DNA from: Agromyces mangrovi
Lineage (GTDB): Bacteria; Actinomycetota; Actinomycetes; Actinomycetales; Microbacteriaceae
Reading direction: 5' to 3'
Assembly: GCF_030296695.1 (NCBI RefSeq)
Contig: NZ_AP027737.1
Location: 372,001 to 436,000, forward strand
DNA length: 64,000 bases
In this document: in pieces, positions 3,208-58,409 of the stretch
How the letters are laid out: the number at the start of each line of letters is the position of its first letter
Numbering within the stretch: the stretch's first letter is position 1
Notes under the pieces: model-generated
The model's database searches: none
What the model was told of the DNA's origin: nothing
What the model saw: only the letters and a program-made list of their open reading frames with translations
Made by a program: the position numbers and the translations under genes

Positions 3208-3232
3208 GATGCCGACGCGGGCGAGCCCCCGG

Positions 3233-3685: not shown

Positions 3686-3804
3686 GCTGGCAGTGTATTG
3701 CCCGGGTCGGGCGCCTGCATCGGGGTCACCCACGAGCCGCTTCCCGGGTGGTGGCCGGGTCGCGTACCGTTGGTCACCGACCTGCCGATGACGCGAGGAG
3801 CCCC

Positions 3805-12095: not shown

Positions 12096-14817
12096 TCGTC
12101 CTCCCGGAGCACGGGGGCGAGCGCGGCGGGGGCGCGCACGGTCGCGGCGATCAGGATGCTCGCGGCCAGCAGTGCGCCGACCGCGGCGCCGAGCGCCAGC
12201 GGGTCGACGTCGAGCACGACCGGGAACGTCTCCGGCAGGTCGACGTATGCGCCGCGCACGAGCGCGGGCACGACGACCCACGCGGTCGCGAGGCCCGCGG
12301 CCACGCCGCCGAGGGCGCCCAGCACGAGCGTGGAGACCTCCTCGAGCGTGCGCACGCGCGCCGCGCCGCGACGGCCGAGGCCGAGCACCGCGAGCACGGC
12401 GAGCTCGCGGGTGTCCTGCCTCGTGCGGGTGCGCCGCAGCACGAGCACGACGAGGGCGAGCACGATCGCCGCGGCGGCCGCGAGCACGAACGCGATGGCG
12501 GTGCGCTCGGCGTCTGCGGCCGCGAGGGGGTCGGCGACCCCGACGGATGCCGCGGGGAACGCCTCCTCGACCGCGAGCGCGACCTCCGCCGCATCCGTCG
12601 TGCCGAACCAGACCTCGGTCGGCTCGAGCGGCACGGCGGCAGACAGCGACGCGGTGACCAGGTCGGTCAGGATGCCCTGCCCGTCGGGAGCACCGGGCAG
12701 CAGCGGGATGACGTCGGCGACCGCGAAGTCGATGGTGGCGTTCATGGTCGGGATGCGCAGCGAGAGCTCGTCGCCGACCTCGGCGCCCAGCTCTGCGGCG
12801 ACCTGCTCGGTGACCACCGCGGGCACCCGCGTCGGCGCGCCCGCGGGCACCGCGCGCACCGCCTCGGCCGACGGGCCGGAGGGCGATGGCACGACCACCC
12901 GGATGCCGTCGCCGAGCTCCTGGATCGACCCGTCGCCGCCCGGTGCCAGCTCGAGCGGGCTCAGGTCGACCGGCCGCCCGTCCGCTCGCACCACGAGGTC
13001 GACGGGTGCACCGGCAGGCGCCCCGATCCCCCACTCCTCCGCGTGCCCGACGCGCAGCTCCACGATCGTCCAGGGACCGCCGGCAGGCAGTTCGAGCTCG
13101 GTCGTCGAATCCATGAGGTTCTCGAACTCGACCACTTGGCCGGCCTCGGATTCCTCGAGCTCGGTGATCTCCACGTTCGTCGCGGCGAGCCGGGCGAACC
13201 GCCCCTCGGCATCGGCCAGCACGAAGCCCGCCGTCATGCCCGGCGGCGGGCCGGTGAAGGTCGACCCGTCCGACTGCTGGTACTCCCCTCGGGCACGTGC
13301 AGCTCGACGGTGAACGACCGGGTGCGCGCTGGGAGCGCGACGCCCGCAGGGCCGTCGCCGCCCTGGCCGAGCGCCTCTGCGAGCGCGGGCGGGTCGACCG
13401 TGCCGTCGGCGTCGGCGAGCACGTCGCCCAGCTGTGCCGCCTGCACGGGGAGCACGGGGATGGTGCCGTCGCTGCCGCGCACCTCGAGCGGGCGCACCGC
13501 CATGGCCGCGTCGGCGCCGGCGACCGCGGCGACCTCCGCTGCGGACACCCCGTCGGGCAGCTCGACGCGCACGTCGGCGCCGACCCGCACGTCCTCGGGG
13601 GCGGCGCCGAGCGCCTCGATGCTGCCCCGGTAGGCGACCGCGAGCGTCACCGCGCCGGCGGCGAGCACGACCACGGCGATGGTGACCGCATGCCGGGCGG
13701 GCCGGCGCGAGGCGAGACGCAGCGGCGTCACCGGGCTCGCGCCGCGGCTCGCACGGAACGTGGCCGCGATCGCGCGGGCGATCGGCGCGGCGACCGCGAC
13801 GGCGACGAGTCCCGCGAGGGCGAGCACCAGCGCGGGAGCCATCGCGACGATGGGGTCGATGCCGCGGGAGCCGTCGCCGCGGACGACCACCGCGCTGCCC
13901 GCCTGCGCGAACTGCCAGACGGCGACGCCCGTGACGATCGCCACGAGCACGGCCGTGCCGATCAGCGCCGTGCCGTCGGCCCGCGCCGAGGTGCGGTCGG
14001 CGCCGCGGAACGTGCCGATCACCACCGCGGCCACGGCGACCAGCACGACGGCGGCGCCCACGGCGACCGCGGGCCGGACGCCGACCGCGACACCGCCCAC
14101 GAGCGCCGCGACGAGCGTGCCGGCCACGGCGCCCGCGATCGCGCCGATCGCCGCGATCACGACGGCCTCGGATGCGGCGATGCCGACGAGTCGCCGGCGC
14201 GAGGCGCCGCGGGCGCGCTGCAGGCGCGTCTCCGTGGTGCGCACGCGCACGACCTCGAGTGCGACCGCCGCCACCGCGACCGCGGCCACGAGCCCGGTGA
14301 TGCCGACGGCGACCGCGGTCGGGCCGCGCCGCGACTCGAGCCCCGGGAGCACGTCGACCAACGTGCGGCGCAGCCCGCCCGAGACCTGCACCTCGGGGCC
14401 GCCGGCATCGGCCACGGCGTCGTCGAGATCGCCGAGCCCGCGGGCGAGGGCCGCCGCAGCGTCGGCCGTGAAGCGCGCGGGGTCGGGCGTCAGCACCAGG
14501 GTGCGGCCGTCGACGGCGACGGCGAGGGCGCCCGGTGCGCCGAGCGCCCCGAGCGCGTCGCGAACCGACGGCTCCGCGTCGACGGGGTCGCCCGACTCCG
14601 GGCGCACGAGCACGCGGTCGCCGTCGCCCGGCGCGGCCGCGACGGCCGCCAGCGCGGCGCGCGACTCGACGACGGCGATCGCGCCGACGAGCCCCGCGAG
14701 GGTCGCCGCGGCGACGGCGGTCGTGACCGCGAGCGCGACGAGCACCGGCAGGGCGGCGCGGGCGCGCGCCAGGAGGAACCGCGCGTTCCCGCGCCGCCGG
14801 TCTCGGGGCCTCGTCAC
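12092..14817 (-). CDS. FtsX-like ABC transporter permease, frameshifted at a G run
   Basis: First gene of the exporter operon, about 908 residues when repaired. It has an N-terminal membrane helix (ALPVLVALAVTTAVAAATLAGL), an extracytoplasmic domain, a mid-protein helix cluster with the TRLQRARGASRRRLVGIAASEA coupling segment, a second outer domain and a C-terminal FtsX block (LAVLAVLGLGRRGAARVRTLEE). Two open frames meet at 13285-13288. Adding one G there joins VELHVPEG to EYQQSDGSTF with no loss. Its length then matches its partner permease, so it is unlikely to be two genes. GTG at 14817 starts only 19 bp after the dppDF stop, so readthrough from the importer genes is possible. Confidence 0.86.
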
Positions 14818-14836
14818 CGCTGGCTGGTCGGTGCGA

Positions 14837-16507
<1,671 letters not shown>

Positions 16508-16557
16508 TGGAGGTGGCCTTTCGGGATGGTTCGCATCGCGTCTGCGACGATGGTGTG

Positions 16558-17154
16558 GTGTCCGAGGTACATGTCTTCCGCCCCCGTTTCGGTCGATGGC
16601 TCGCGGGAGCCGTGTTCGTCGCCTGCGGCATCGGCTTCGTCGCGGCCCTCATGGGCGCGCCCGGCGACCTGCTCGCCTTCACGCCGATGCTCGCCCTGCT
16701 CGCCTTCGGCGCCTGGGCGGCCTACTGGCGCCCGTCGGTGCGCATCGACGACGAGGGCGTCGTGGTCGCGAACGTGTTCCGCACGATCCGCGTGCCGTGG
16801 GGCCAGATCCGCCGCATCGACACGCGCTACTCGCTCATGCTCGACACGACGCACGGGCGCGTGAGCGCCTGGGCGGCACCCGCACCCGGTCGCTACTCGC
16901 TGCTGTTCGCGCAGCGGGAGCACGGCACCCACCTGCCCGAGTCGAGCTACGTGGCCGGCACGGTGCGACCCGGCGACCTCGTCTCGAGCGACTCGGGCGC
17001 GGCCGCGTACCTGGTGCGCCGGCGCTGGGAGGCGCTGCGCGACAGCGACCGGCTGGTCGACGACGGCAGTCCGCGCGACGTGACGCTGCACATCGCCACG
17101 ATCGCGGGATTCGCGGTGCTCGTCCTCGCGGTCGTGCTGGGCGTCGTGGTCTAG
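16558..17154 (+). CDS. PH-domain membrane protein, unknown function
   Basis: Protein of about 198 residues with two membrane helices near the N-terminus (LAGAVFVACGIGFVAALM and LLAFTPMLALLAFGAWAA) and one at the C-terminus (IATIAGFAVLVLAVVLGVVV). Between them is a bacterial PH-like domain with the usual VRIDDEGVVVANVFRTIRVPW strands. GTG at 16558 or 16555 are both possible; a weak -10-like GACGAT ends six bases before 16558. It sits inside the importer locus on the opposite strand, divergent from dppDF by 50 bp and convergent with dppC by 11 bp. Proteins of this class in mycobacteria and relatives are linked to envelope and division complexes, but nothing here proves that. Confidence 0.75.
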   Translation: MSEVHVFRPRFGRWLAGAVFVACGIGFVAALMGAPGDLLAFTPMLALLAFGAWAAYWRPSVRIDDEGVVVANVFRTIRVPWGQIRRIDTRYSLMLDTTHGRVSAWAAPAPGRYSLLFAQREHGTHLPESSYVAGTVRPGDLVSSDSGAAAYLVRRRWEALRDSDRLVDDGSPRDVTLHIATIAGFAVLVLAVVLGVVV

Positions 17155-26310: not shown

Positions 26311-26527
26311 GGCGAACCCGGCTCGATCCGGACCCGGGCGACCTCGGTGCACGCACCAGCGCGGACGACGGCTGGCACGGACACGTCCCCCGGCACGCAC
26401 CGAGCCGGCGTGCGCGCGGACCGCAGGACGGACCGGTGCACCCGCCGATGCGGACGTCGGCGGGTCGCGGCAACCTGAAGTGGTGGCGGCACGATCCCGA
26501 CGAGCCGCACACAGGGGGAATCGGATC

Positions 26528-26767
26528 ATGTACTACGCGAACACCGTCGTCGCCGAGGCGCTCTACGCCCACGAGGCCAAGCGCCAGGCCACCGACCTCG
26601 AGCACCGGCGCGTCGCCGCCGAGCGCGGCCAGCTGCCGGAGCATGCGTGGCACCGCATCGACCGGGCACTCGTGCGCGGGTACCAACGGGCCCGCCGTCG
26701 CCTCCGCATCCGTCACCTCGCACGCGTGCACCACCACGCCGTGGTCATGCGCACCAAGCACCTCTGA
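26528..26767 (+). CDS. small charged protein paired with LAL regulator (copy 2)
   Basis: Protein of 79 residues (YYANTVVAEALYAHEAKRQA, then LEHRRVAAERGQLPEHAW) with a strongly basic Arg/His C-terminus. It mirrors the small protein at 23115 in position and in its first 35 residues. ATG at 26528 sits 66 bases before the start of the second LAL regulator. The codon pattern has GC at third positions throughout, as in real genes here. Function is unknown; the basic tail would allow nucleic-acid or phospholipid contact. The 217 bp between the first regulator and this gene hold no other frame I can support. Confidence 0.7.
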   Translation: MYYANTVVAEALYAHEAKRQATDLEHRRVAAERGQLPEHAWHRIDRALVRGYQRARRRLRIRHLARVHHHAVVMRTKHL

Positions 26768-26832
26768 GCAGGTCGTCGGCACGCGGCCCGTGGTCACGAC
26801 CGCGGGCCGCACCGCTGTGGGAGGATGACGCC

Positions 26833-29681
26833 GTGGGCGCCGCACCGACTCGCAGCATGGCGGGTCGGCGCGCCGAGATGCAGGCGCTGCGCGACGCGCT
26901 CGTGGCGGCGATGCACGGCGACCCGCAGGTCGTGCTCGTCGGCGGCGAGGCGGGCATCGGCAAGAGCCGGCTCGTCGAGGAGTTCACCGCGGGCGTCGAC
27001 GAGGCATTCGTCGCCCGCGGGCAGTGCATCGAACTCGCGGACGCGGGGGCGCCACTCATCCCGATCCGCTCGATCGTGCGAGCGCTGGTGCGGGAGTTCG
27101 GCGAACCGGCTGCGCGCGACGCCGCCGGACCCTCGGCCGACGCACTCCGCACCCTGTTCCCGGGGGCGGCGACGGTCCGCCGACCGGTGGCGCGGGCCTG
27201 CTCGAGGAGGGCTTCCTGCGCCTGGTCGAGACGCTCTCGCAGCGGCGGCCGCTCGTGCTCGTCATCGAGGACGTGCACTGGGCGGATGCCTCCACGATGG
27301 CCGTCGTCCAGTACGCCATCCGCCTCGTGCGCGACGCCCGCGCCATGCTGGTACTCACCGCCCGCACCGCCGAACTGCCGCGCGGGCACCGACTGCGCAC
27401 CGACCTCGCGGAACTCGACCGCCTGCGCGCCGTCTCGCGCATCGAACTGCCCCGGCTGACCCGGGAGGGCGTCGAGCAGATGGCGGGCGTCGCGCACGCC
27501 GACCGGGTCGACGAGCTCTACGCGCGCAGCGGAGGCATCCCCTTCTTCGTCGAGGAACTGCTCGGAGCGAGCGCACACGACCTGCCGCACTCGCTCACCG
27601 ACCTGCTCGCGGCACGGTACGAGCGCCTCTCGAGCGACACGCGGGCCGCGCTCCGGCTCATGGCGGTGGGCGGCGTGCGGGTCGAGCACGAACTGCTCGA
27701 GTCCGTGCACGGCGGCGAAACCGAGTCGCTCGAGCGCGCGATCCGCGAGGCGGTCGACGGCGGGCTGCTCGTCACCGACCGATCGGGCTACGCGTTCCGG
27801 CACGCGCTCGTGCGCGAGGTCGTCGACGGCGAGCTGATGCCCGGCGAGCGCTCGCGGTACCACGCGCGGTACGCCGAGGCGCTGCAGTCGCGGCCCGGAC
27901 CCGGCATCGACGTCGAGATCTCGACGCACTTCCTGGCCGCACGACGATACGACGAGGCGTTCGCGGCGGCCCGACGCGCGATCGAGGAATCCGAGCGCTC
28001 GTACGCGATGTCGACGGTCGCGGCGATGGCCGAACGCATGATCGACATCTGGGACCAGGTGGCCGACGCCGAGGCCGTCGCCGGCATGTCGCGCGTCGAC
28101 CTGCTCCAGGCCGCGGCGCACGCGCACCGCGCCGCGGGCAACGCCGTTCGCGCGATTCCGCTCACGGAGCTCGCGATGGAATCCGCGGGCGACGACCCGC
28201 TGCTCATGGCAGGCCTGCTCGGAGACAACGGTCGCGACCTGTACCGCATCGGCGAGCCCGGTGCGCTGGCGCTCATGGAGCGCGGGCTCGCGCTCATCGC
28301 CGACGATCCGTCGCACGAGGCACTCGTCCTGCGCGCCGAGATCCTCGCGGACCTGAGCGCCGCGCACATGATGCAGGGCAGCGACGACACGCTCGACATC
28401 GCCGAGCGCGCACTCGAGGTGGGAGCGTCGGCCGGCGAGGACGGGCACCGCGCGGCATCCATCGGTGCCAACATCGCCGGAGTCGCACTCGTCGACTGGG
28501 GTCGCGTCGAGCAGGGCATGGAGCGATTCGCCCAAGCACGTGAGTTCGCCGGCGACGACTGGGCACCGCGCGTGCGCCTCGCGATCAACCTGTCGGATTC
28601 GCTCCTCCAGCTCGGCCGATACCGGGAGGCCGTCGAAGTGGCGGAGTCCGCGCTCGAGGAGGCCCGGGAGCGGGGCGAGGAGCGCGGCACCGGCGTGATG
28701 CTCTCCTCGAACGCGGCCGAACCGCTCTTCGCACTCGGCGAGTGGGACCGCGCCCGACGCATCCTGGACCGCACGCTGCGCTCCGACGCGCCGATGGCGT
28801 TCCGCAGGTTCCTGGAGCACATGCAGCTCTGGATGCTCGTGTGGTCGGGCGACCTCGACGCTGCGAACGAGTGGAACCGGATGATCCGCGCCCGTCGCGA
28901 CGAGGTCGGGCGCATCGAACGCCAGGTGGAGACCGGCGCCGCGTACGACGAGGCGGAGCTGCTGCTCGCGAACGGCGACCCCGCGGCCGCGTTCGCCCGG
29001 CTCGAGCCGATCATCTTCGACGGACGCGACGACCGGCCCGCCGATCGACTGCTGCACCTCGCCACCGCCGCACGCGCCGTGGGCGCGATGCGCGATCTCG
29101 GCGTGGCTCCCCTGCGACCGCCCGATGACCTGCGCGCAGCCCTCGACGCCCTGCAGCACTGGGAGTCGGCCCCGGTGTGGACCGCGATCGCGAACGCCGA
29201 GCTGACCGACGACCCGGCGGAGCGCGCGCACGCGTGGCAGCCCGCGCTCGACCTGCTCGCCGCGGGCAACGGCCACCGGCACCTGTTCGGCTACGGGCTG
29301 GTGCGCCAGGGCACGGCGCTGCTCGACGCCGGCGACCGCGAGGCCGCAGCCGAGCGCCTCGCCCGGGGTCGCGCCGAGGCCGAGACGCTCGGGAGCGGCC
29401 TGGTCGTGCGGATGGCGGACGACGTCACCGGGCGTGCGGGGCTGCGGCTCGGGGCATCCGCCGACCGCACCGGGCGCGGCGACGCCGAGCTCACCGCGCG
29501 CGAGCAGCAGGTGCTCGACCTCGTCGCCGAGGGGCTGTCGAACCGCGAGATCGGCGAGCGGCTCTTCATCAGCGGCAAGACCGTGAGCGTGCACGTCTCC
29601 GCCGTGCTGCGCAAGCTCGGAGTGGGGTCTCGCACGGAGGCGGCGGCGGTCGCCTCCGCCGCTCGGGCGAGCCGGGACTGA
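26833..29681 (+). CDS. LuxR-family ATP-binding regulator (LAL type), copy 2, frameshifted
   Basis: About 949 residues when repaired, with the same plan as the regulator at 23473. Walker A is GEAGIGKS (38-45), Walker B LVIEDVHWAD, then GGIPFFVEELL, a long helical array, and a C-terminal LuxR domain ([20 protein letters not shown] then [16 protein letters not shown]) nearly identical to that of copy 1. The frame breaks in the G run 27162-27166. One extra G joins LFPG to GGDGPPTGGAGLLEEG. GTG at 26833 follows GGGAGGATGACGCC, although an ATG at 26857 is possible. It converges with gcvP 31 bp downstream. Copies 1 and 2 are probably an old tandem duplication, since the middles have diverged widely. 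Confidence 0.88.
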
Positions 29682-29712: not shown

Positions 29713-32579
<2,867 letters not shown>

Positions 32580-32583
<4 letters not shown>

Positions 32584-32978
32584 TCGCCCGTGACCTCGCG
32601 GTACTGCTCGAGGCTCAGCAGGTCGCCGGGGATCTCCGCGACCGTGACCTTGATCAGCCATCCGTCGCCGAACGGGTCGCTGTTGAGCAGCTCGGGCTCG
32701 GAGACCGCACGCTCGTTGACCTCGGTGACCGTGCCGTCGACCGGCGAGATCAGCTCGCCCACCGACTTGGTCGACTCGATCTCGCCCACGACCTCGCCCG
32801 CGGCGACGGCCGTGCCGACCTCGGGCAGCTCGAGGAAGACCACGTCGCCGAGCTTGTCGGCCGCGTAGGCGGTGATGCCCACCACCACACCGCCGGCGTC
32901 GACGCCCTCGGCGGGGTCCTCGTCGATCAGCACCCACTCGTGGTCGCTGGTGTACTTCAGGTCGTTCAGGTCGGTCAT
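32580..32978 (-). CDS. gcvH: glycine cleavage system H protein
   Basis: Lipoyl carrier of 132 residues that shuttles the aminomethyl intermediate between P, T and L proteins. The lipoylation site is Lys71 within [12 protein letters not shown], and the N-terminus has the usual SDHEWV. ATG at 32978 lies 95 bases downstream of the gcvT stop. That gap contains four tandem GTGCG units on the plus strand (33012-33031). The stop overlaps the gcvP start. Regulation is through the glycine riboswitch upstream of gcvT. Confidence 0.97.
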
Positions 32979-33011
32979 GGGGTTCCCCTCGGGTGATGGT
33001 TCGCGGTGCTC

Positions 33012-33031
33012 GTGCGGTGCGGTGCGGTGCG
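33012..33031 (+). repeat. four tandem GTGCG units
   Basis: A perfect array of four five-base units lies in the gcvT-gcvH spacer. It is noncoding, so copy-number change would alter spacing rather than reading frame. Confidence 0.6.
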
Positions 33032-33073
33032 GTTCGTGGTGGCTGGCGATGGCGGATGCCGGTGGGCGACGCC

Positions 33074-34222
33074 TTACTTCTCGCGGCGGTAGAACGGCAG
33101 GTCGACGACGGATGCGGCGATGCGCGTGCCGCGCACGTCGACGTACAGGGTGGTGCCCGTCGCCGCGTGGCGCGGGGCCACGTAGGCCATGGCGATCGGG
33201 TGGCCGAGCGTGGGCGACAGCGCGCCGCTCGTGATCACGCCGACCTCGGAGGCATCCGCCCCATCGCCGTCGAAGAGCGCGTACCCCGCGCGGCCCGCGC
33301 GGCGGCCCTCGCTCGCGAGTCCGACCAGCACCGGGGCATCCGCCGCCGGCCCCTCCTCGCTCGCGGCGCGGCCGACGAAGTCGACCTCCTTGCCGAGCGC
33401 GACGACGCGGCCGAGCCCCGCCTGGGCCGGGAAGGTGTCGCGCGTGAGCTCGTGGCCGTACAGCGGCATGCCCGCCTCGAGGCGCAGCGTGTCGCGGCTC
33501 GCGAGGCCCGCGGGCACGAGGCCGTGCGGTTCGCCCGTCTCTGCGAGCGCCTCCCAGAGGGCGGGCGCCTGGTCGGGCGAGACGTAGAGCTCGAAGCCGT
33601 CCTCGCCCGTGTAGCCGGTGCGGGCGACGAGCACGGGCTGCTCGGCGTACTCGGCCGCGACCGCGCGGTAGTACTTCATGCCCGTGACGGCATGCACGAA
33701 GTCGTCGTGGTCGTTGCCGTCGCCCTGGATGCCGAAGCCGGGCGTGTTCGTGAGGATCTCGAGGGCCTTCGGCCCCTGCACGGCGATGAGCGCCATGTCG
33801 TCGGACTCGTCGAACACCTCGCAGTCGAACGGCGCGGTGCGGGCGCGCAGTTCGTCGGCGACGTGCTCGGCGTTGGCCGCATTGGCGACGACGAGGTAGC
33901 GGTCGGCACCCGTGCGGTAGACGACGAGGTCGTCGATCACGCCGCCGTGGCGGGCGAGCAGCAGGGTGTACTTCGCCTGGCCCTCGACGCTGGCCGAGAG
34001 CTTCCCGGCGAGCGCGTAGTCGAGCGCGCGGTCGGCCTCGGGGCCGACGACCACGATCTCGCCCATATGCGAGAGGTCGAACAGGCCGGCTGCGGTGCGC
34101 ACCGCCCTGTGCTCGGCGAGGTCCGACGAGTAGCGCACGGGCATCTGCCAGCCCGCGAAGTCGGTGAAGGTCGCGCCGGCGGCGCGGTGGATCGCATCGA
34201 GGGGGCTCAGGCGTTCGGTCAT
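33074..34222 (-). CDS. gcvT: aminomethyltransferase, glycine cleavage T protein
   Basis: Enzyme of 382 residues that transfers the methylene group from the GcvH-bound intermediate to tetrahydrofolate and releases ammonia. Family segments include FDLSHMGEI, the folate-site aspartate region ([14 protein letters not shown]) and [16 protein letters not shown] at 34222 is chosen because AGGAGAAC precedes it and the translation then begins at the conserved [13 protein letters not shown]. The frame is open further upstream only because the riboswitch lacks stops in this frame. First gene of gcvT-gcvH-gcvP. Confidence 0.96.
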
Positions 34223-34271
34223 GGAGTTCTCCTGTCGTCGCACGGCGCGCGCGGCATGCTGCCGCGGTCGA

Positions 34272-34445
34272 GAACTCCCCTCTGTCATGTGCCTGAGAGT
34301 TTCACGGCCCCGTGGGGTCGCTTTCACCGTGGGCGGGATGCTCATGGCATCCGCTTTTCAGAGCGGCCTGCTCGCTGCGGTCTGTGACCTGAGAGATTGG
34401 CGGGGAGGCTTGCTCCTTCGGTGCCGGCCCAGCCGGCTCTCCCGC
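34272..34445 (-). promoter_or_regulatory. tandem glycine riboswitch
   Basis: Read on the minus strand, the leader of gcvT has two glycine aptamers in series. The first (about 34445-34388) begins GGGAGAGCCGGC and ends CAATCTCTCAGG. The second (about 34385-34272) has GCTCTGAAAAGCGGATG, then GGTGAAAGCGACC, and closes with AAACTCTCAGGCACATGACAGAGG. The paired CUCUCAGG and ACAGA blocks are the hallmark of this class. The linker is very short, as expected for the cooperative form. Glycine binding should turn on the cleavage operon. The second aptamer ends about 50 bases before the gcvT ATG, and no clear terminator is seen, so control may be at translation. Confidence 0.93.
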
Positions 34446-34554
34446 AACGCGTCGATGGCCCGATATGCGATTGTGCGCACAGCCTACCAACCGAACCCGC
34501 GAATCCCCCGCACGCATCTCGCGTGGTCGCGGGCGCGGGCGGTTTGGTGTTCGG

Positions 34555-36781: not shown

Positions 36782-38293
36782 ATGGCCGCCGTCGTGGTCG
36801 TCGGCAGCGGGCTCGCGGGCCTGCTCGCGGCCGTGCGCGCCGCCGACGCGGGGCACCGCGTGACCGTGGTCACCAAGGGCCCGCTCGACGAGGGCAGCAC
36901 GCGCTACGCGCAGGGCGGCATCGCCGCCGCGCTGTTCGCCGACGACTCGGTCGACGCGCACGTGCTCGACACGCTGCGCGCGGGCGCCGGGCACTGCGAC
37001 CCCGCCGCCGTGCGCGTGCTGTGCGAGGAGGGGCCGGCGCGCGTGCGCGACCTGATCCGGTTCGGCGCCCGGTTCGACCGCGACGAGTCCGGGCTGGCAC
37101 GCGGGCTCGAGGCGGCGCACTCGCGTGCGCGCGTGGTGCACGCGGGCGGCGACGCGACCGGCGCGGAGCTCATGCGGGCGCTCGTGGCGACCGTGCGATC
37201 GCGCGCCGTCGAGCTGGTCGAGCACGCGATGCTCGCCGACGTGCTCACCTGCCGGGGCCGCGCCTGCGGCGTACGCCTCCTGATCGACGGCCAGCTCGTC
37301 GACCGCCCGGCCGACGCCGTGGTGCTCGCCACGGGCGGCACCGGGCAGCTCTTCGGCCGCACCACGAACCCCGCGGTCGCGACCGGCGACGGCGTGGCCG
37401 CGGCGTGGCGGGCGGGCGCCCGGGTCGCCGACCTCGAGTTCACGCAGTTCCATCCGACCGCGCTCGCGACCCCTGGCGCCCCGCTGATCTCCGAGGCCGT
37501 GCGCGGCGAGGGGGCGGTGCTGCGGGATGCCTCCGGCGAGCGCTTCATGCCGTCGCGGCATCCGCTCGCCGAGCTCGCGCCGCGCGACGTCGTGGCCCGC
37601 GAGGTCGCCGCGGCCATGCGACGCCATGACGCCGCACCCGCGTACCTGGACGCGACCGCGCTCGGCGGCGCGTTCCTCGCCCGGCGCTTCCCCGGCATCT
37701 ATGCGGCAACGCGCGCAGCCGGGTTCGACTGGTCGCGCGAGCCCGTGCCGGTCACGCCCGCCGCGCACTACGCGATGGGCGGCATCGCGACCGACCTCTG
37801 GGGGCGCACGAGCGTGCCCGGCCTCTTCGCGGTCGGCGAGTGCGCGCGCACCGGCGTGCACGGCGCCAACCGCCTCGCATCGAACTCGCTGCTCGAGGCG
37901 GCCGTGTTCGCCGATCGCGCCGCGCGGGTGCTCGACGCGCCGTTCCCGGCCGCGCACGGGGTCGTGCGCGCGCGGCAGGACGCCCCGGGCCCAGCCCTCG
38001 CCACCCGCGCTGCCGGCGAGCCGTTCTCTCGCGCTGCGCTCCAGGACCTGATGTGGACCCGTGCGGGCCTCGAGCGCTCGGGCGACGGCCTGGCCGAGGC
38101 ATCCGCCCGGCTCGACGAGTGGACCGCCGACCCGGCGCCCACCGTCTCAGCCATCGAGGATGCGAACCTGCTGCTGCTCGCCCGCCTCACGGTCGACGCC
38201 GCGCTCGCCCGCCGCGAGTCGCGCGGCGCGCACCACCGACTCGACCACCCCGACCGCGATCCCGCGCTCGGCGCGCTCCCGGAGGCCGCATGA
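36782..38293 (+). CDS. nadB: L-aspartate oxidase
   Basis: FAD enzyme of 503 residues that oxidises L-aspartate to iminoaspartate for NadA. The N-terminal dinucleotide fold is VVVVGSGLAGLLAAVRAA, and GSTRYAQGGIAAALF is the conserved flavin/substrate segment. The active-site region HYAMGGIATDLWGRT is followed by GLFAVGECARTGVHGANRLASNSLLEA. The C-terminal helical domain ends in a charged stretch. The start is one base after the nadA stop, and its stop overlaps nadC as ATGA. Confidence 0.96.
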   Translation: MAAVVVVGSGLAGLLAAVRAADAGHRVTVVTKGPLDEGSTRYAQGGIAAALFADDSVDAHVLDTLRAGAGHCDPAAVRVLCEEGPARVRDLIRFGARFDRDESGLARGLEAAHSRARVVHAGGDATGAELMRALVATVRSRAVELVEHAMLADVLTCRGRACGVRLLIDGQLVDRPADAVVLATGGTGQLFGRTTNPAVATGDGVAAAWRAGARVADLEFTQFHPTALATPGAPLISEAVRGEGAVLRDASGERFMPSRHPLAELAPRDVVAREVAAAMRRHDAAPAYLDATALGGAFLARRFPGIYAATRAAGFDWSREPVPVTPAAHYAMGGIATDLWGRTSVPGLFAVGECARTGVHGANRLASNSLLEAAVFADRAARVLDAPFPAAHGVVRARQDAPGPALATRAAGEPFSRAALQDLMWTRAGLERSGDGLAEASARLDEWTADPAPTVSAIEDANLLLLARLTVDAALARRESRGAHHRLDHPDRDPALGALPEAA

Positions 38294-39153
38294 CCGCCCT
38301 CACGCCCGCACAGCTCGACCGCATCGTGCAGGCCGCGCTCGACGAGGACGCCCCGTGGGGCGACCTCACCTCCGAGACGCTCATCCCCGCCACGGCGCAG
38401 GCGCGCGCCGACCTCGTCGCCCGCGAGCCCGGCGTGATGAGCGGCGCCGCGGTCTTCGCGGCCGCGTTCCGCCTCGTCGACCCGCGCATCGCGGTCGAGC
38501 AGGTCGTGCCCGACGGCGACCGCTTCGCCGCGGGCGACCGGCTCGCGAGCGTCGCCGGCCCGGCGCGGGCGGTGCTGCGCGCCGAGCGCATCGGCCTGAA
38601 CTTCACCCAGCGCATGTCGGGCATCGCGACCCTCACCGCGAGCTACGTCGACGCCGTCGCCGGCACCCGGGCGCGCATCGTCGACACCCGCAAGACCACG
38701 CCGGGCCTGCGCGTGCTCGAGCGGCAGGCGGTGCGCGACGGCGGAGGCCGCAACCACCGGTTCTCGCTGTCGGACGCGGTCATGGCGAAGGACAACCACC
38801 TCGCCGTGCTCACGGCCGACGGCACGAGCGTGACCGATGCCCTGCTGGCGGTACGCGAGCGGATGCCCCACACGGCGCACCTCGAGGTCGAGGTCGACCG
38901 CCTCGACCAGGTCGAGGACGTGCTCGCGGCGGGCGTCGACACGATCATGCTCGACAACTTCTCGCTCGACGACCTGCGCGCGGGCGTCGCGCTCGTGGAC
39001 GGGCGCGCGGTCGTCGAGGCGAGCGGCGGAGTGAACCTCGACACGGTGAGCGCGATCGCGGCGACGGGTGTCGACGTCATCTCGGTCGGCGCGCTCACGC
39101 ACAGCGTGCGCTCGCTCGACCTCGGTCTCGACGTGGTGGTCGGCGGGCCGTGA
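38290..39153 (+). CDS. nadC: nicotinate-nucleotide pyrophosphorylase (carboxylating)
   Basis: Quinolinate phosphoribosyltransferase of 287 residues. It converts quinolinate and PRPP to nicotinate mononucleotide, carbon dioxide and pyrophosphate. Family segments are DEDAPWGDLTSETL, ERIGLNFTQRMSGIATLT, DTRKTTPGLR and MAKDNHL, and the C-terminal barrel shows MLDNFSLDDLR and EASGGVNLDTV. It overlaps nadB (ATGA) and the cysteine desulfurase gene (GTGA), so translation is coupled along the operon. Confidence 0.97.
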   Translation: MTALTPAQLDRIVQAALDEDAPWGDLTSETLIPATAQARADLVAREPGVMSGAAVFAAAFRLVDPRIAVEQVVPDGDRFAAGDRLASVAGPARAVLRAERIGLNFTQRMSGIATLTASYVDAVAGTRARIVDTRKTTPGLRVLERQAVRDGGGRNHRFSLSDAVMAKDNHLAVLTADGTSVTDALLAVRERMPHTAHLEVEVDRLDQVEDVLAAGVDTIMLDNFSLDDLRAGVALVDGRAVVEASGGVNLDTVSAIAATGVDVISVGALTHSVRSLDLGLDVVVGGP

Positions 39154-40294
39154 TCTACCTCGACCACGCCGCCACGACCCCGGTGCGCCGCGAGGCGCTC
39201 GAGGCGATGTGGCCGTACCTGACCGGCGAGTTCGGCAATCCATCGAGCCACCACCGCGTGGGCGAGGCCGCGGCGGCGGCCCTGGCCGACGCACGCGCCG
39301 CGGTCGCGCGGGTGCTCGGCTGCCGCCCCGGCGAGGTCACCTTCACGTCGGGCGGCACCGAGGCCGACAACCTCGCGGTCAAGGGCATCGCGCTCGGCGC
39401 TCCGCGCGGACGGCACGTGGTCACCACTCCCATCGAGCACGAGGCCGTGCTCGAGTCGGTCGACTTCCTCGCGCGCGTGCACGGCTTCGAGGTCACCATG
39501 CTGGCGGTCGACGCGGGCGGCCGGGTCTCCCCGACCAGCTCGCCGAGGTGCTGCGCGATGACACGACGCTCGTGAGCGTGCAGCTGGCGAACAACGAGAT
39601 CGGCACGGTGCAGCCCGTCGCCGAACTCGCGGCCGTCGCGCACGCGCGCGGCGTGCCGATGCACACCGACGCCGTGCAGGCGGCCGGCTGGCTGCCGCTC
39701 GACCTCGGCGCGCTCGGCGTCGACGCGCTCTCGCTCTCGGGCCACAAGGTCGGCGCGCCGAAGGGCTCCGGCGTGCTCGCGGCGAGGGGGCGGATGCCAC
39801 TGGAGCCCGTGCTCCACGGCGGCGGCCAGGAGCGGGGCCGGCGCTCGGGCACCGAGAACGTGGCCGGCGCCGTCGCGCTCGCGACCGCGTTGCGTCTCGC
39901 GGAGGACGAGCGGGAGGAGGCTGCGGCACGCGTCGCCGCCGCCCGCGACGCGCTCGTCGCGCGCGTGCTCGCTGACGTGCCGTCCGCACGCCTCACGGGC
40001 GACGCCGAGCACCGGCTGCCCGGCACGGCATCGTTCGTGTTCCCCGGAACGAGCGGCGAGGCGGTGCTGCTCGAGCTCGAGCAGCGCGGTGTCGTGGGCT
40101 CGAGCGGGTCGGCCTGCGCGGCCGGCAGCGACGAGCCGTCGCACGTGCTGACCGCGATCGGGCTGCCGGCCGAGATCGCGCAGACCGCCGTGCGGTTCAC
40201 GCTCGGGCGGGACGCGGACGCCGAGGACGTTGCCGCTGCGGCGGCATCCGTCGCTTCGGCCGTGTCGGCGGTGGGCGGTATCGTGTCGGCATGA
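39150..40294 (+). CDS. cysteine desulfurase (NifS-like), frameshifted at a C run
   Basis: PLP enzyme, about 381 residues when repaired. It takes sulfur from cysteine, here probably for the NadA cluster. Motifs are YLDHAATTPVR at the start, SGGTEADNLAVKG, HEAVLES and, in the second frame, SLSGHKVGAPKG with the PLP lysine and SSGSACAAGSDEPSHVL with the reactive cysteine. The frame breaks at 39529-39532; one added C gives GRVSPDQLAEVL and restores the family alignment. GTG at 39150 overlaps the nadC stop. A desulfurase beside nad genes is also known in Bacillus. Regulation is with the operon. Confidence 0.9.
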
Positions 40295-45342: not shown

Positions 45343-46203
45343 CTACTTCAGCAGGCGCGACATGCGGCGGTCGGCGAGCAGCTTGCCGCCGGTCTGGCAG
45401 GTCGGGCAGTACTGCATCGAGCGGTCGGCGAAGTGCACGTCGCGCACGGTGTCGCCGCACACCGGGCACGTCTCGCCGCCGCGCGCGTGGACGCGCATGC
45501 CCTGGCGCTTCGCGTCCTTGAGCTCGGCGGCCGGTCGCCCCTCGGCCGCCTCGACCGCACCGCGGAGCGTGTCGCGAAGCGCGTCGTAGAGCCGAGCGAC
45601 CTCCTCGTCGTCGAGCGATGCGGCGAGCGCGTACGGCGACATCTTCGCCACGTGCAGCACCTCATCGGAGTAGGCGTTGCCGACGCCCGCGATGAGCGAC
45701 TGCTCGCGCAGCACGCCCTTGATCTGGGTGCGGCGGCCCGAGAGGATTCCGGCGAACACCTCGAGCGTGAAGTCGTCGCCCAGCGGCTCGGGCCCGAGGG
45801 AGGCGATGCCGGGCACCTCGGCCGCGTCGCGCACGACGTACACCGCGAGCGACTTCTTCGTGCCCGCCTCGGTGAGGTCGAACCCCGAGCCGTCGTCGAA
45901 TCCGACGCGCATCGCGATGGGCGACTTGCCGGGCCGGATGCGGCTGGCGGGGAGCTGCTCGTACCAGCGCAGCCAGCCCGCGCGGGCGAGGTGCGCGACG
46001 AGGTGGACGCCGTCGACGTCGAGGTCGAGCCACTTCCCGTGCCGTGCCGCGCCCGTGACGGTGCGCCCGACGAGCTCGGTCAACGGCGGGTCGAAGGTCT
46101 TGAGCGCGGAGAACGAGGTCATGAGGGCCGAGCGGATGCTGCGCCCGACCGTCCGCCCGCGCAGGAACCCCACCAGCGCGTCGACCTCGGGCAGTTCCGG
46201 CAT
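45343..46203 (-). CDS. Fpg/Nei family DNA glycosylase
   Basis: Base-excision repair enzyme of 286 residues. The mature N-terminus PELPEV carries the catalytic proline and Glu. The zinc finger at the C-terminus reads CPVCGD, then CPTCQTGG, ending LADRRMSRLLK. The helix-two-turn-helix region is LIAGVGNAYSDEVLHVAKM. It removes oxidised bases and nicks the strand. Nei versus Fpg cannot be settled by eye, although the EVDALVGFLRGRTVGRSI start resembles actinobacterial Nei-like proteins. The ATG at 46203 is fixed by the obligatory proline. It diverges from padR across a 120-bp region. Confidence 0.93.
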   Translation of the reverse strand: MPELPEVDALVGFLRGRTVGRSIRSALMTSFSALKTFDPPLTELVGRTVTGAARHGKWLDLDVDGVHLVAHLARAGWLRWYEQLPASRIRPGKSPIAMRVGFDDGSGFDLTEAGTKKSLAVYVVRDAAEVPGIASLGPEPLGDDFTLEVFAGILSGRRTQIKGVLREQSLIAGVGNAYSDEVLHVAKMSPYALAASLDDEEVARLYDALRDTLRGAVEAAEGRPAAELKDAKRQGMRVHARGGETCPVCGDTVRDVHFADRSMQYCPTCQTGGKLLADRRMSRLLK

Positions 46204-46262
46204 GCCGACAGTCAACCAGTCGCATTCGCGCGCATCCACCCTTGCGCGCGCATCACCACAGG

Positions 46263-46281
46263 TATATCGTGAGACGATATA
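46263..46281 (+). promoter_or_regulatory. PadR operator-like inverted repeat
   Basis: TATATCGT-GAG-ACGATATA is a perfect 8-bp inverted repeat 42 bases before the padR ATG. It overlaps the likely -10 region and stands out as AT-rich in this GC-rich sequence. PadR regulators commonly bind such a site in their own promoter. Confidence 0.65.
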
Positions 46282-46323
46282 GCGACCCACGAGTGATCTG
46301 CTCGCGAGCGACGGACGGAGACC

Positions 46324-46686
46324 ATGACCGACACCCAGCCCCGCGACCTGCTCCCCCTGACGGAGCCGGTGTTCCACATCCTGCTCGCACTCGTGGACGA
46401 CGAACGCCACGGCTACGCGATCATGCAGGAGGTGCGCACGCGCACCGATGGGGACGTGACGCTGGCGCCGGGCACGCTGTACGGCGCGATCAAGCGCCTG
46501 CGCGGCCTCGGGCTCATCGAGGAGTCCGACACGCGCGTGGATCCGGAGCTCGACGACGAACGCCGGCGGTACTACCGCATCACCGGCCTCGGCGAGCGGG
46601 TCGCCACAGCCGAGGCGGCGCGAATCGCCGCGCTCGCACGACAGGCGGCGGCGAAGCGCCTGCTGCCCGACTGGGGCGCGGCCTGA
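46324..46686 (+). CDS. PadR family transcription regulator
   Basis: Winged-helix regulator of 120 residues, the short (subfamily 2) form. The PadR signature is EPVFHILLALVDDERHGYAIMQEV, TLAPGTLYGAIKRLRGLGLIEE, then DERRRYYRITGLGERV. It probably represses its own operon through the inverted repeat at 46263-46281. Its stop overlaps the start of the membrane-protein gene (TGATG), as is common for PadR modules controlling an envelope protein or transporter. The inducer is not known from the sequence. Confidence 0.93.
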   Translation: MTDTQPRDLLPLTEPVFHILLALVDDERHGYAIMQEVRTRTDGDVTLAPGTLYGAIKRLRGLGLIEESDTRVDPELDDERRRYYRITGLGERVATAEAARIAALARQAAAKRLLPDWGAA

Positions 46687-47597
46687 TGTCCGCCCGCGTG
46701 GACGAGGGCCGGATGATCCGGGCGGCAGTGCGCGCCCTCCCGGCCGAGTTCCGCGCGGAGTACGGCGACGAGGTGCTGCTCGTCGCGCGCGACACGCTGC
46801 GCGACGCCCGCGCGTCGGGCCCGGCAGCGGTCTCCGGCGCACGCGGCCGCATCTTCGTCGACCTCGTGGCCACCGCGGCCACCGAGCACGCACGGAAGGG
46901 GTTCACCATGCGCACCACGGCACCCGGCATCGGGTACGGCATCGCGGCGGCCGTCGGCCTGCCGCTCTACCTCGCGAGCTTCGGCAGCATCGCGTTCTGG
47001 CAGCTCGTCGAGGGCGCCCACGAGGCGTTCGGCGTCCGATCGGCGGCCTGGTTCCATCCCGTCATCGCCGTCATCGGCGGGCTGCTCGCCACGATCGCGC
47101 TGCTCGGACTCGTCGGGCGCCTCGGCCTCGGCTCCCGCAGCGGTGCGATCGCCCGCACGGCCGCCATCGTCGTGGGCGCAGGGTTCACCCTGGCGCCGCC
47201 CAGCATGCTGGCCGACGGGGCGATCCTGCGGAACTCCGTGCGCGTCGCCGTCGACACCATGGCGACGATCGGCTGGGCGATCGGCATCGTCGGCGTCACG
47301 GCGCTCCTCGTCACCCTCGGCGTGATCACGCTGCGCCGGCGAGCGCTCGGCGCGTGGAGCATCGCACCGCTCGTGGCCGGCGTGATGCTCGTCGCGTGGA
47401 TCGCGTACGGGGCCGTGTCGACCGCCCTGGGGGTGAGCTACCTCGTGTCGTCGGGCACGCTCGCGGCACAGCTGCTCACGTGGGCGCTGCTGCTCGCGTG
47501 CGCCGCCATGGGCGCCGGGCTCGCCATCGCCCCGCGCGACCACGCCGGCCACGCGAGCACGCCCCAGCGCCGCGTCGGCACCGCCGCGCCGGCCTGA
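46686..47597 (+). CDS. multi-helix membrane protein cotranscribed with padR
   Basis: Protein of 303 residues. The cytoplasmic N-terminus (about 1-60) has the pattern ALPAEFRAEYGDEVLLVARDTLRD, seen in membrane proteins encoded after PadR regulators. Six or so hydrophobic helices follow (for instance IGYGIAAAVGLPLYLASFGS and WSIAPLVAGVMLVAWIAYGA). The end is polar. No catalytic motif is seen. ATG at 46686 overlaps the padR stop. The pairing suggests PadR controls the amount of this protein in response to envelope stress or a drug, by analogy. It converges with the Lon-N gene six bases downstream. Confidence 0.8.
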   Translation: MSARVDEGRMIRAAVRALPAEFRAEYGDEVLLVARDTLRDARASGPAAVSGARGRIFVDLVATAATEHARKGFTMRTTAPGIGYGIAAAVGLPLYLASFGSIAFWQLVEGAHEAFGVRSAAWFHPVIAVIGGLLATIALLGLVGRLGLGSRSGAIARTAAIVVGAGFTLAPPSMLADGAILRNSVRVAVDTMATIGWAIGIVGVTALLVTLGVITLRRRALGAWSIAPLVAGVMLVAWIAYGAVSTALGVSYLVSSGTLAAQLLTWALLLACAAMGAGLAIAPRDHAGHASTPQRRVGTAAPA

Positions 47598-55654: not shown

Positions 55655-56113
55655 ATGACCGAGATCACCATCGCCGAGCGCGCCCCGCAGCCGACCGCAG
55701 GCATCCGCGAGACCGTGCCGATGGACCAGCTGCCCGAGTTCTTCGGGCGTGCGTTCCACGCCACGATGGAGGCGATGCGCGCGCAGGGCGTGGCGCCGGC
55801 GGGGCCGCCGTTCGGCAAGTACCACGGCGTGCCGGGAGCGACCGCCGACGTCGAGGCCGGCGTGCCGGTCGCCGGCGCGTTCGAGACCGCCGGCGACGTC
55901 GTCGCGCGCGAACTGCCCGGCGGCATGATCGCGTCGGCGCTGCACGTCGGGCCGTACGACACGCTCGGCGATACCTACGACGCGATCCGGCGCCACATCG
56001 TCGACGAGGGGCGCATGCCCGGCGGCATCATGTGGGAGTGCTACGTCAGCGACCCCGAGGAGGAGCCCGACCCGGCGACCTGGCGCACCGACGTCTGCTG
56101 GCTGGTCGTCTGA
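55655..56113 (+). CDS. GyrI-like small-molecule-binding protein
   Basis: Protein of 152 residues with the GyrI-like (AraC effector-binding) fold. The opening ITIAERAPQPTAGIRETVPM and the repeat-like segment VARELPGGMIASALHVGPYDTLGDTYDAIRRHI are typical, as is the ending WECYVSDPEEEPDPATWRTDVCW. Such domains bind hydrophobic drugs or cofactors, and some have cyclopropanoid hydrolase activity. It lacks a DNA-binding part. Its start is three bases after the hydrolase stop, and HelR follows 140 bp downstream, separated by the RAE promoter. A role in drug binding near HelR is attractive but unproved. Confidence 0.85.
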   Translation: MTEITIAERAPQPTAGIRETVPMDQLPEFFGRAFHATMEAMRAQGVAPAGPPFGKYHGVPGATADVEAGVPVAGAFETAGDVVARELPGGMIASALHVGPYDTLGDTYDAIRRHIVDEGRMPGGIMWECYVSDPEEEPDPATWRTDVCWLVV

Positions 56114-56144
56114 CTCCCCGCCACATCCATTATCCCGCACCGAG

Positions 56145-56159
56145 GGGGCTTGCGGCAAG
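56145..56159 (+). promoter_or_regulatory. rifamycin-associated element (RAE)
   Basis: GGGGCTTGCGGCAAG matches the RAE motif I recall from promoters of rifamycin-resistance genes; its core is the inverted repeat CTTGC-G-GCAAG. TTGCGG inside it (56150-56155) can serve as a -35 box, with CAGAAT (56175-56180) as -10 after a wide 19-bp spacer. The HelR start codon lies about 95 bases downstream, so the element is positioned to drive HelR. Confidence 0.85.
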
Positions 56160-56253
56160 AGGGGGTGACGCGGGCAGAATCGCAGGTCGCAGCCCGATTC
56201 CGCGAATCTCGTCGGCGTCGGCGCCGCGCTGCCCACGACCCCGGAGCCGCCGC

Positions 56254-58409
56254 GTGACCAGCCTCTCGACCCACACCTTCGACCTCCCACCGACCAACGC
56301 CCACAAGGCGAACCCCGCGCGCATCGCCGCAGACGAGCGGCACTTCGCCCGCATCGCCGACCGCCTCGCCCGGCAGATCGCCGATCTCGACGACCGCCTC
56401 GACGCCGAGCGCCGCGCCCCGGGCGGGCGCGGCCATCAGGCGCTCGATCGCGACCTGCGCATCCACCACCTGACGGCGCGCCTGCGCGTGCTGCGCCGAT
56501 TCGGCGCCGACGCGTGCCTCGGCCGCATCGTGCCCGCGGGCGAGGGCGACCCCGTCTACATCGGCCGCTTCGGCCTGGCGGACGACGATGGCCGACGACT
56601 GCTGCTCGACTGGCGCACGCCCGCCGCCGAGCCGTACTTCGCGGCCACGAGCGCCAACCCGCTGGGGCTCGCGAGCCGTCGACGATACCGCTGGGCCGGC
56701 GGTCGGGTGCGCGACTACTGGGACGAACTGCTCGATGCGGATGCCCCGAGCGACACCCTCGCGCTCGACGACGAGTCGGCGTTCATCGCGAGCCTCGGCA
56801 CCGAGCGGTCGGGTCGCATGCGCGACGTGCTGGGCACCATCCAGGCCGACCAGGACGCGATCATCCGCGCCGACTCGCGCGGCGCGCTCGTCGTCGACGG
56901 CGGGCCGGGCACCGGCAAGACCGTCGTCGCGCTGCACCGCGCGGCCTACCTGCTGCACGCCGACCCCCGGCTCGGCGCGGGGCGCGGCGGAGTGCTGTTC
57001 GTGGGGCCGAACACGTCGTACCTGGCGTACGTCGCGGACGTGCTGCCCAACCTCGGCGAGGAGGGCGTGCAGACCTGCACTCTGCGCGAGCTCGTCGCCG
57101 AGGGCGCCGACGCGGTCGGCGAGCGCGATGCGGAGGCGGCCCGGCTCAAGGCATCCGCTCGCATGATCGAGGCGATCGAACCCGCCGTGGCCTTCTACGA
57201 GGAGCCGCCGACGCAGCCGCTCGAGGTCGAGACGCCCTGGGGCGACCTGTGGCTCGACCCCGCCGACTGGGCGGAGGCGTTCGCGGCGCCGGAGCCCGGC
57301 ACGCCGCACAACGAGGCGCGCGACCAGGTCTGGGAGACGCTCGTGGAGATCCTCGCCGACCGGCTCGACGACGACGAGGTGTCGATCGACGAGCTGCGCC
57401 GCGCGCTGGCCCGCAACGCCTCGCTCGCGCGCACGTTCACGCGTGCGTGGCCGCTGGTCGAGGCATCCGTGCTCGTCGGCGACCTGTGGTCGGTGCCTGC
57501 CTACCTGCGTCGCTGCGCCCCTGGCTCGCGCCCGACGAGGTGACGGCACTGCAGCGATCGGATGCCTCGGGCTGGACGACCCACGACCTGCCGCTGCTCG
57601 ATGCGGCCCGGCGCCGCCTCGGCGACCCGCGGTCCTCCCGTCGTCGGCGCGAGCGCGAGGCGACGCTCGCCGCCGAGCGCGAGGCGATGTCGCAGACGAT
57701 CGAGCGTCTCGTCGCCGCGGGCGACGACCTCCTCAGCTGGATGGACGGCGACGACCTGCGCAACAGCCTCGTCGACGACGCCGTGCTGCCCGCCGACGAC
57801 CCCGACCGGCTCGCGGGCCCGTTCGCGCACGTGATCGTCGACGAGGCGCAGGAGCTGACGGATGCCGAGTGGCGCATGCTCATCGCGCGCTGCCCGTCGC
57901 GCAGCATCACGGTGGTCGGCGACCGTGCGCAGGCGCGCCACGGCTTCGCCGAGTCGTGGGAGGACCGCCTGCGGCGCGTCGGCCTCGCGGATGCCTCGGT
58001 CGCGACGCTGCGCGTGAACTACCGCACGCCGGCGGAGGTCATGGCGGAGGCCGAGCCCGTGATCCGGCGCGTCATCGCGGACGCGAACGTGCCGACGTCG
58101 GTGCGCTCGACCGGGGTGCCGGTGCGACGCGTGGCGCACGCCGAACTCGGGTCGGTGCTCGAGGCGTGGCTCGCGGCGCACGAGGCGGGCGTCGCGTGCG
58201 TGATCGGCGACCCCTCGTTCTCGGCCGACTCGGTCGCGGGCGGCGCAGGGCGCGTGCGCTCCCTCTCCCCCATCGAGGCGAAGGGCCTCGAGTTCGATCT
58301 GGTCGCACTCGTCGAGCCCGACGCGCTCGGCGACGGCATCGAGGGCGCGGTCGACCGCTACGTGGCCATGACCCGAGCGACGCAGGAGCTGGTTATGGTC
58401 GACGCCTGA
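56254..58409 (+). CDS. helR: HelR/HelD-type RNA polymerase recycling ATPase, frameshifted
   Basis: UvrD-like superfamily 1 ATPase, about 718 residues when repaired. The N-terminal 60 residues are a charged coiled coil that in relatives enters the polymerase channel. Walker A is GGPGTGKT (216-223); after the break come FAHVIVDEAQELTDAEWRML (Walker B), VVGDRAQARHG, and IEAKGLEFDLVALVEP near the end. Relatives bind RNA polymerase, displace rifamycin and recycle stalled enzyme. The frame shifts at 57518-57521; one added C yields RRCAPWLAPDEV. GTG at 56254 is chosen since the family start follows directly. The RAE upstream strongly favours the rifamycin-tolerance role. Confidence 0.9.

Follow-up and report, generated by a model that had tools for sequence, protein, structure and literature searches.

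In Agromyces mangrovi, the rifamycin-associated element (RAE) in front of helR looks like the common centre of two promoters, a weak one for helR and a stronger one running antisense. At the level of sequence, the RAE is the exact midpoint of two opposed, conserved promoter-like elements. We give a probability of about 0.5 to the reading that two conserved promoters, set back to back, share it as their centre, with interference in some form between them. The pairing of RAE and helR is already known, and the new point is the two-sided geometry of the element. The window analysed here comprises 64,000 nt of A. mangrovi (assembly GCF_030296695.1, contig NZ_AP027737.1, positions 372,001-436,000), and all coordinates are window positions (Table 1). 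Four published sources (PMC10719064, PMC12802891, PMC8655204, PMC10194278) are cited from parts of their text.

Table 1 Features of the RAE-helR region, in window coordinates.
Feature	Position	Strand	Basis or remark
GyrI-like small-molecule-binding protein (PF06445)	55655..56113	+	neighbour, outside the unit
Antisense -10 GATAAT, 20 bp from RAE centre	56129..56134	-	sequence
RAE: exact 15-mer and 3' arm	56145..56163	+	exact match, conservation
Palindrome core CTTGCGGCAAG, within the RAE	56149-56159, centre 56154		
Putative sense -35 TTGCGG, inside the palindrome	56150..56155	+	position; fixed 19-bp spacing
Putative antisense -35 TTGCCG, overlaps the sense -35	56153..56158	-	symmetry
Sense -10 CAGAAT, 21 bp from RAE centre	56175..56180	+	conserved hexamer
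helR N-terminal part	56254..57543	+	likely start GTG; translation shows Walker A GGPGTGKT and a DWR motif
Interval of reading-frame change in helR	57498..57522	+	alignment to a relative's open gene
helR C-terminal part, other frame	57519..58409	+	Walker B VIVDEAQ readable in translation

The sense half of the arrangement had been recognised in a first-pass annotation of this DNA, which placed TTGCGG and CAGAAT 19 bp apart and proposed that so wide a gap could explain induction. The spacing is as described there, real and conserved, but poor promoter geometry alone is insufficient as an explanation. Transcription from this promoter is predicted to start at about 56187, and the RAE lies ~95 bp upstream of the helR GTG start. 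Among the named helR loci (the best 80 of at least 549 confirmed), 61 carry an RAE, allowing two mismatches, in the 700 bp upstream as read on the strand of the gene; the other 19 have none in that range. Counted from the palindrome centre, all 61 RAE-bearing loci have A at +22 and T at +26, and 59 of them have C at +21. The palindrome core followed by nAnnnT at +21 recurs in 30/30 helR loci of the same genus (from 45 hits, window included). The 19-bp spacing is no local oddity of the window. In Mycobacterium smegmatis the RAE likewise contains the -35 of the gene, overlapping that of helD promoter 2, and deletion of half of the RAE abolishes induction (PMC10719064). Rifampicin induces helD/helR in relatives (PMC10719064), the ground on which the window's unit may be taken as inducible, and there HelR protects against the drug (PMC10719064, PMC8655204, PMC10194278).

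What the first-pass annotation overlooked is the mirror image of this promoter-like element on the other strand. The antisense start is predicted at about 56122, from where transcription would enter the GyrI-like gene at its 3' end. The antisense -10 lies at 21 bp in the 29 other same-genus loci (29/30), the window having it one position closer, at 20. Positions -21, -22 and -26 are A, T and A in 61/61 of the RAE-bearing named helR loci; on the antisense strand these bases make up the T1, A2 and T6 of a hexamer TAnnnT. All 61 also have C at column -17, and this invariant C excludes a TAnnnT hexamer at that place on the sense strand.

To avoid the bias of a sample chosen by helR, GGGnCTTGCsGCAAG was searched in 296 genomes of the class irrespective of the genes nearby, and it is present in 138 of them. 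The matches listed comprise 84 distinct RAE places in 65 genomes, or 168 strand-sites, with the window's own left out; five places that have no assigned resistance gene (L149, L177, L198, L199 and L211) were kept in the geometry counts. TAnnnT occurs at an offset of 21 bp in 81/168 strand-sites of these listed places and at most twice at any other offset from 8 to 44. CAnnnT occurs at the same offset in 74/168, its next highest count being 10, at offset 11. In 78/84 listed places the palindrome centre is flanked on either side by an nAnnnT hexamer at exactly 21 bp; three places have such a hexamer on one side and three on neither, and each hexamer is 19 bp from TTGCSG on its own strand. The two sides also differ in what follows the hexamer: by eye, G+C predominates behind the sense hexamer (cgccgg type), and purines predominate behind the antisense one (gagAGTGG). 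At L199, a place with no recognisable resistance gene, the hexamers on the two flanks have degenerated (CGGAAC, TACGTC), which looks like a joint decay of the two promoters.

The asymmetry between the two sides predicts on which of them the gene lies. When the 84 listed places are oriented by their hexamers alone, taking the C-type side as sense, or the side opposite the T-type hexamer where no C-type is present, the HelR homologues fall on the sense side in 39/40 cases, FAD monooxygenases in 18/18, rph in 7/7, arr in 4/4 and rgt-like genes in 6/7. The two exceptions, L191 for helR and L178 for the rgt-like genes, have T on both sides. Conversely, with the same listed places oriented by the gene, CAnnnT occurs on the side of the gene, and TAnnnT on the opposite side, in 37 and 39 of 40 helR places, 16 and 18 of 18 rox-like, 7 and 7 of 7 rph, 6 and 6 of 7 rgt-like and 4 and 4 of 4 arr. 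Both sides carry nAnnnT in 40/40 helR, 17/18 rox-like, 7/7 rph, 6/7 rgt-like, 4/4 arr and 3/3 ABC transporter places, and in 1/5 of those with no assigned gene. Judged by the hexamers, the C-type side is thus the one that bears the resistance gene, for five kinds that are unrelated to each other. The family names come from representatives: those of rph, arr and drrA pass curated cut-offs, while the monooxygenase scores 469.5 against the NF033145 cut-off of 800 and is therefore called rox-like, and the rgt representative scores 390.5 against the NF000354 cut-off of 800 and is called rgt-like.

Two further kinds of gene were seen beside an RAE in these class genomes. At L201, L203 and L205 an RAE flanked by the two hexamers stands before a DrrA-type ABC transporter, which lies on the hexamer-defined sense side in all three of these listed places; L201 and L203 match TIGR01188, and L205 has a DrrA C-terminal domain with an ABC-2 permease adjoining. 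The transporter is a possible rifamycin efflux pump within the RAE regulon. At L149 an alpha/beta hydrolase (PF00561; 531-1490 of that locus, minus strand) follows the RAE core, and the antisense TAnnnT is present with no sense nAnnnT at 21 bp. This may perhaps be a drug esterase, or a decaying site.

A signature made of the core and both hexamers, with the outer arms left unspecified, was searched in 396 genomes of the phylum. It matches 47 places in 35 of these genomes, and the reversed control gave zero among the matches listed. We examined 36 of the 47, ten of which are also among the 84, for genes within 700 bp on the CAnnnT side, and all 36 precede resistance genes: 19 rox-like, ten helR, three rph, three arr and one rgt-like. 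The outer GGG arm is present in every one of the 36, although the signature does not specify it. Thirteen of the 47 places belong to genomes of the same phylum but another class (L237, L238 and L262-L272), where the full two-sided signature stands mostly before rox-like monooxygenases. The window itself is unmatched because its antisense hexamer is GATAAT rather than TAnnnT and lies at 20 instead of 21 bp.

On the antisense side no gene shared among the loci was found. No antisense reading frame of at least 120 aa starting within 1200 bp is common to more than three of the 84 loci among the clusters listed, with two misoriented sites set aside. The idea that the antisense promoter drives a small repressor protein was discarded, as no shared reading frame is seen by eye and a hairpin follows immediately at many sites. 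RNA taken from the predicted start (+33, 34 nt) at sites with an assigned gene was folded and compared with mononucleotide shuffles; it folds better than the shuffles (z below -1.5) at 38/78 antisense starts and at 8/79 sense starts. The antisense signal is found at 6/7 rph sites and 0/4 arr sites, and the window has none (z of about 0 and 1.1 for two start positions). The 18 simple hairpins start at nucleotides 1-3, have 16 different 5' arms and show several base-pair types at most stem positions. The stretch that follows contains 33% T in hairpin sites vs 18% in the others. Hairpin and T content together suggest that the antisense transcript ends almost at once in some lineages, a property that is not universal.

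These features could be combined into a mechanism if both mirrored elements are real promoters. The sense promoter would be kept weak by C at the first -10 position and a G+C-rich discriminator, and the antisense promoter would be stronger, with T at the first -10 position and a purine-rich discriminator; TAnnnT (antisense) stands against CAnnnT (sense) in 72/84 listed sites. The antisense promoter would yield only a short non-coding RNA, with an immediate hairpin end at about half of the sites. Because the two -35 regions overlap, a polymerase on one promoter would shut out a polymerase on the other, and the antisense promoter would hold the resistance gene down. In the least certain step, rifamycin-blocked polymerase would release this hold, either through polymerase traffic as in the Bacillus subtilis helD alarm or through a palindrome-binding protein. 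The sense promoter would then fire, and HelR would clear drug-blocked polymerase, an activity that is published for relatives.

The B. subtilis system provides a close parallel to such an arrangement. There, helD is kept silent by a dominant antisense promoter whose firing ceases once rifampicin blocks the polymerase, and moving the promoters so near that polymerases clash abolishes induction (PMC12802891). With the B. subtilis helD and pps alarm the RAE would share an antisense promoter beside a weak promoter of a rifampicin-protection gene, and 19-bp spacers recur, in B. subtilis on the antisense promoters (PMC12802891). The geometries differ, however. The B. subtilis promoters are convergent, 39 bp apart and required not to overlap (PMC12802891), whereas those proposed at the RAE are divergent and share a palindromic -35 region, so that the hexamers point outwards from a common centre and the facing, non-overlapping layout is absent. 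Plain competition between the two promoters was rejected as a drug sensor: in a small model of mutual exclusion with one polymerase pool, 200,000 random parameter sets never raised the sense output, the maximum fold remaining below 1. Since plain exclusion gives no induction, and since closeness abolishes it in B. subtilis, either a collision or removal step or a palindrome-binding protein must be added.

The second of these options leads to the foremost alternative, which we regard as a real possibility, though short of an even one: a dedicated dimeric transcription factor recognises the 19-bp palindrome and reacts either to rifamycin or to the inhibition of polymerase, and the mirrored -10 hexamers are two promoters that it controls together. 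A factor of this sort is a published working idea: the RAE mechanism is treated as open, and a yet-unfound regulator is considered, in a 2022 review and a 2026 study (PMC10719064, PMC12802891). Besides the behaviour of the model, the palindrome in the named loci, with its conserved outer arms, and the strict spacing on both sides, 19 bp where 17 is usual, speak for such a protein. The outer GGG arm, kept in 36/36 places though unspecified, is unlike a -35 contact and points to a dedicated binding protein. Further observations count against the promoter pair: the hairpin is missing in about half of the sites, in all four arr sites and in the window; one or both hexamers are missing in 6/84 listed sites; and the antisense -10 of the window is one position closer than elsewhere. 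On the other hand, the parts of PMC10719064 and PMC12802891 used here name no such factor. Within the genus the outer arm on the antisense side is looser, CCC being kept in 16/30 loci against GGG in 30/30 on the other side (by eye). A factor on its own would also leave unexplained why an antisense -10 with no shared gene behind it has been kept before several unrelated families. The conserved outer arms favour a protein, and the conserved antisense hexamer that leads to no shared gene favours interference.

The back-to-back promoter pair also has a stricter form, in which the RAE would be a bidirectional promoter core rather than chiefly a site for a drug-sensing protein. The sensor would then be RNA polymerase, with a strong antisense promoter to nowhere silencing the gene until rifamycin stops it. 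We consider this form less likely than not and put it forward tentatively.

The gene downstream had been assigned to a HelR/HelD-type ATPase spanning 56114-58409. By profile it is HelR, as proposed, but the span is not one open frame, and the likely start is the GTG at 56254 rather than 56114. In the N-terminal piece (56254-57540), residues 9-424 match positions 1-415 of the NCBIfam model NF041254 (motor_HelR) with 704.6 bits, and the rival models HelR_2 and HelD_MYCSM score lower (248.3 and 221.8 bits). The C-terminal piece (57519-58406) covers positions 414-705 with 457.9 bits, vs 152.3 for HelR_2 and 141.5 for HelD_MYCSM. These scores favour HelR, each piece alone being below the whole-protein cut-off of 750. 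The best solved structure for both pieces is 6yxu_H, the RNA polymerase-associated transcription factor HelD, so that the closest structure is the mycobacterial form, which belongs to class II (PMC8655204, on the related entry 6YYS).

A break in the reading frame of helR, which the first-pass annotation missed, raises the question of whether the gene is intact. The first frame runs as far as 57543, and the C-terminal part continues in another; when the gene is aligned with its open counterpart in G038, the nearest relative, the switch falls between 57498 and 57522. That helR is a true pseudogene here, the change real and the unit dead, we hold to be improbable, even though the change sits in the only helR copy that the genome contains at E 1e-60 or better. 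In G038 and G015, the nearest relatives, helR lies in open frames of 1308 and 775 aa, respectively. Across the 64 kb of the window, 10/34 gene spans match open frames of these two relatives in more than one frame; at least seven of the ten look like clean within-gene switches, helR included, and a few of the ten may stem from spurious overlapping frames. The other clean switches are at 3230-4593, 9363-16855, 26509-28730, 32514-34508, 37488-40291 and 45625-47492. Genome completeness is 95.35, vs 99-100 for most among the relatives listed, and together with the multi-frame spans this is what indel errors in an assembly would produce. The assembly seems rich in small indels, and because of the multi-frame spans, the low completeness and the open copies in G038 and G015, the break in helR is probably an assembly error.

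The block upstream of the palindrome might be something other than an antisense promoter, namely the outer contact of a larger protein site or the remnant of an upstream sense promoter. For the latter there is a precedent in M. smegmatis helD, where a sense start (P1) is mapped ~20 bp upstream of the RAE (PMC10719064). The base pattern makes this quite unlikely: the invariant T1, A2 and T6 spell the antisense TAnnnT, the sixth position on the sense strand being C in 61/61, and the block is an exact mirror, down to the single base pair, of the sense -10, with a hairpin at the predicted antisense start in 38/78 sites. An RNA element was also considered for the RAE and is disfavoured, as the predicted start of either transcript lies beyond the palindrome; in M. 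smegmatis the RAE would be part of the mapped P1 transcript (PMC10719064).

The RAE of the window is, in its main part, an exact one. The 15-mer GGGGCTTGCGGCAAG is found at 56145-56159, where the first-pass annotation had correctly placed it ahead of a HelR gene, a pairing that is already published. Its suggestion of a genome-wide search has been carried out: in the 3.61-Mb single-contig genome this is the only exact copy, and it precedes helR. The element is described by name and as a 19-bp palindrome (PMC10719064, PMC10194278). The full palindrome, GGGnCTTGCsGCAAGnCCC, is not present in the window, where the 3' outer arm is GGG (56161-56163) in place of the palindromic CCC, likewise in the two nearest relatives; CCC is kept in 16/30 same-genus loci, the rows being read by eye. 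The RAE sequence analysed here is the one read in the window and in related loci.

Searches that tolerate mismatches give no excess of RAE-like sequences. With up to three mismatches, the window contains one match against 3.25 expected, and the genome 67 + 66 matches against 173 + 138 for the reversed control; with at most one mismatch, the RAE and the reversed control have one match each in the genome. As there is no excess in the counts, the weight lies on exactness, position and conservation. A chance 15-mer is excluded already by position and conservation, even with these counts no higher than control, since the match is exact, ~95 bp upstream of the HelR GTG with the -10 at its usual place, and the palindrome core precedes helR in every one of the 30 same-genus loci examined. 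Further RAE genes were sought among the five copies with two mismatches (L002-L006), none of which has a -10-like hexamer at 21 bp on either side or strand, so the genome appears to have one RAE gene. The RAE-helR unit of this genome is an ordinary one.

The GyrI-like gene just upstream, which had been suggested to bind a hydrophobic drug, is not part of this unit. A relative of it lies within ~1.5 kb of helR in 2/30 same-genus loci, the window's own included, and with just one of the 29 others the role proposed for it finds no support; as the drug sensor of the unit it was rejected on this ground. The gene is also less conserved than its neighbour, at 63.8% between the window and G038 compared with 89.5% for helR (best piece).

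In outline the unit resembles those of Streptomyces venezuelae SVEN_6029 and M. abscessus MAB_3189c, in which an RAE lies upstream of the gene for a HelR/HelD motor ATPase. It differs from them in its degenerate 3' outer arm, in the frame change of the assembled gene and in its GyrI-like neighbour. The rifamycin-inactivation genes under RAE control (rox, rgt, rph and arr) have the same palindrome and the same mirrored -10 hexamers, but their products modify the drug, whereas HelR is a motor that clears blocked polymerase. Both rph and arr have been linked to the RAE, and they were identified here by profile. An RAE in front of helR, rox and rgt is published (PMC10719064, PMC8655204, PMC10194278). 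An antisense promoter at the RAE finds no mention in the parts of PMC10719064, PMC12802891, PMC8655204 and PMC10194278 used here, nor in the titles and abstract openings of the literature searched.

The mirrored antisense -10, standing before five unrelated gene families and also beyond the class of the window, supplies a specific element and a transcript to look for. The two-sided signature would sharpen searches for RAEs, with no reversed-control match listed and 36/36 examined places before resistance genes. The geometry suggests a testable answer to the question of how these bacteria sense an antibiotic that blocks RNA polymerase. If the RAE is a bidirectional promoter core with the polymerase as its sensor, five unrelated resistance gene families across the Actinomycetota would form one regulon without a regulator, and the arrangement would be a second, independent invention of the two-promoter rifampicin alarm of B. 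subtilis.
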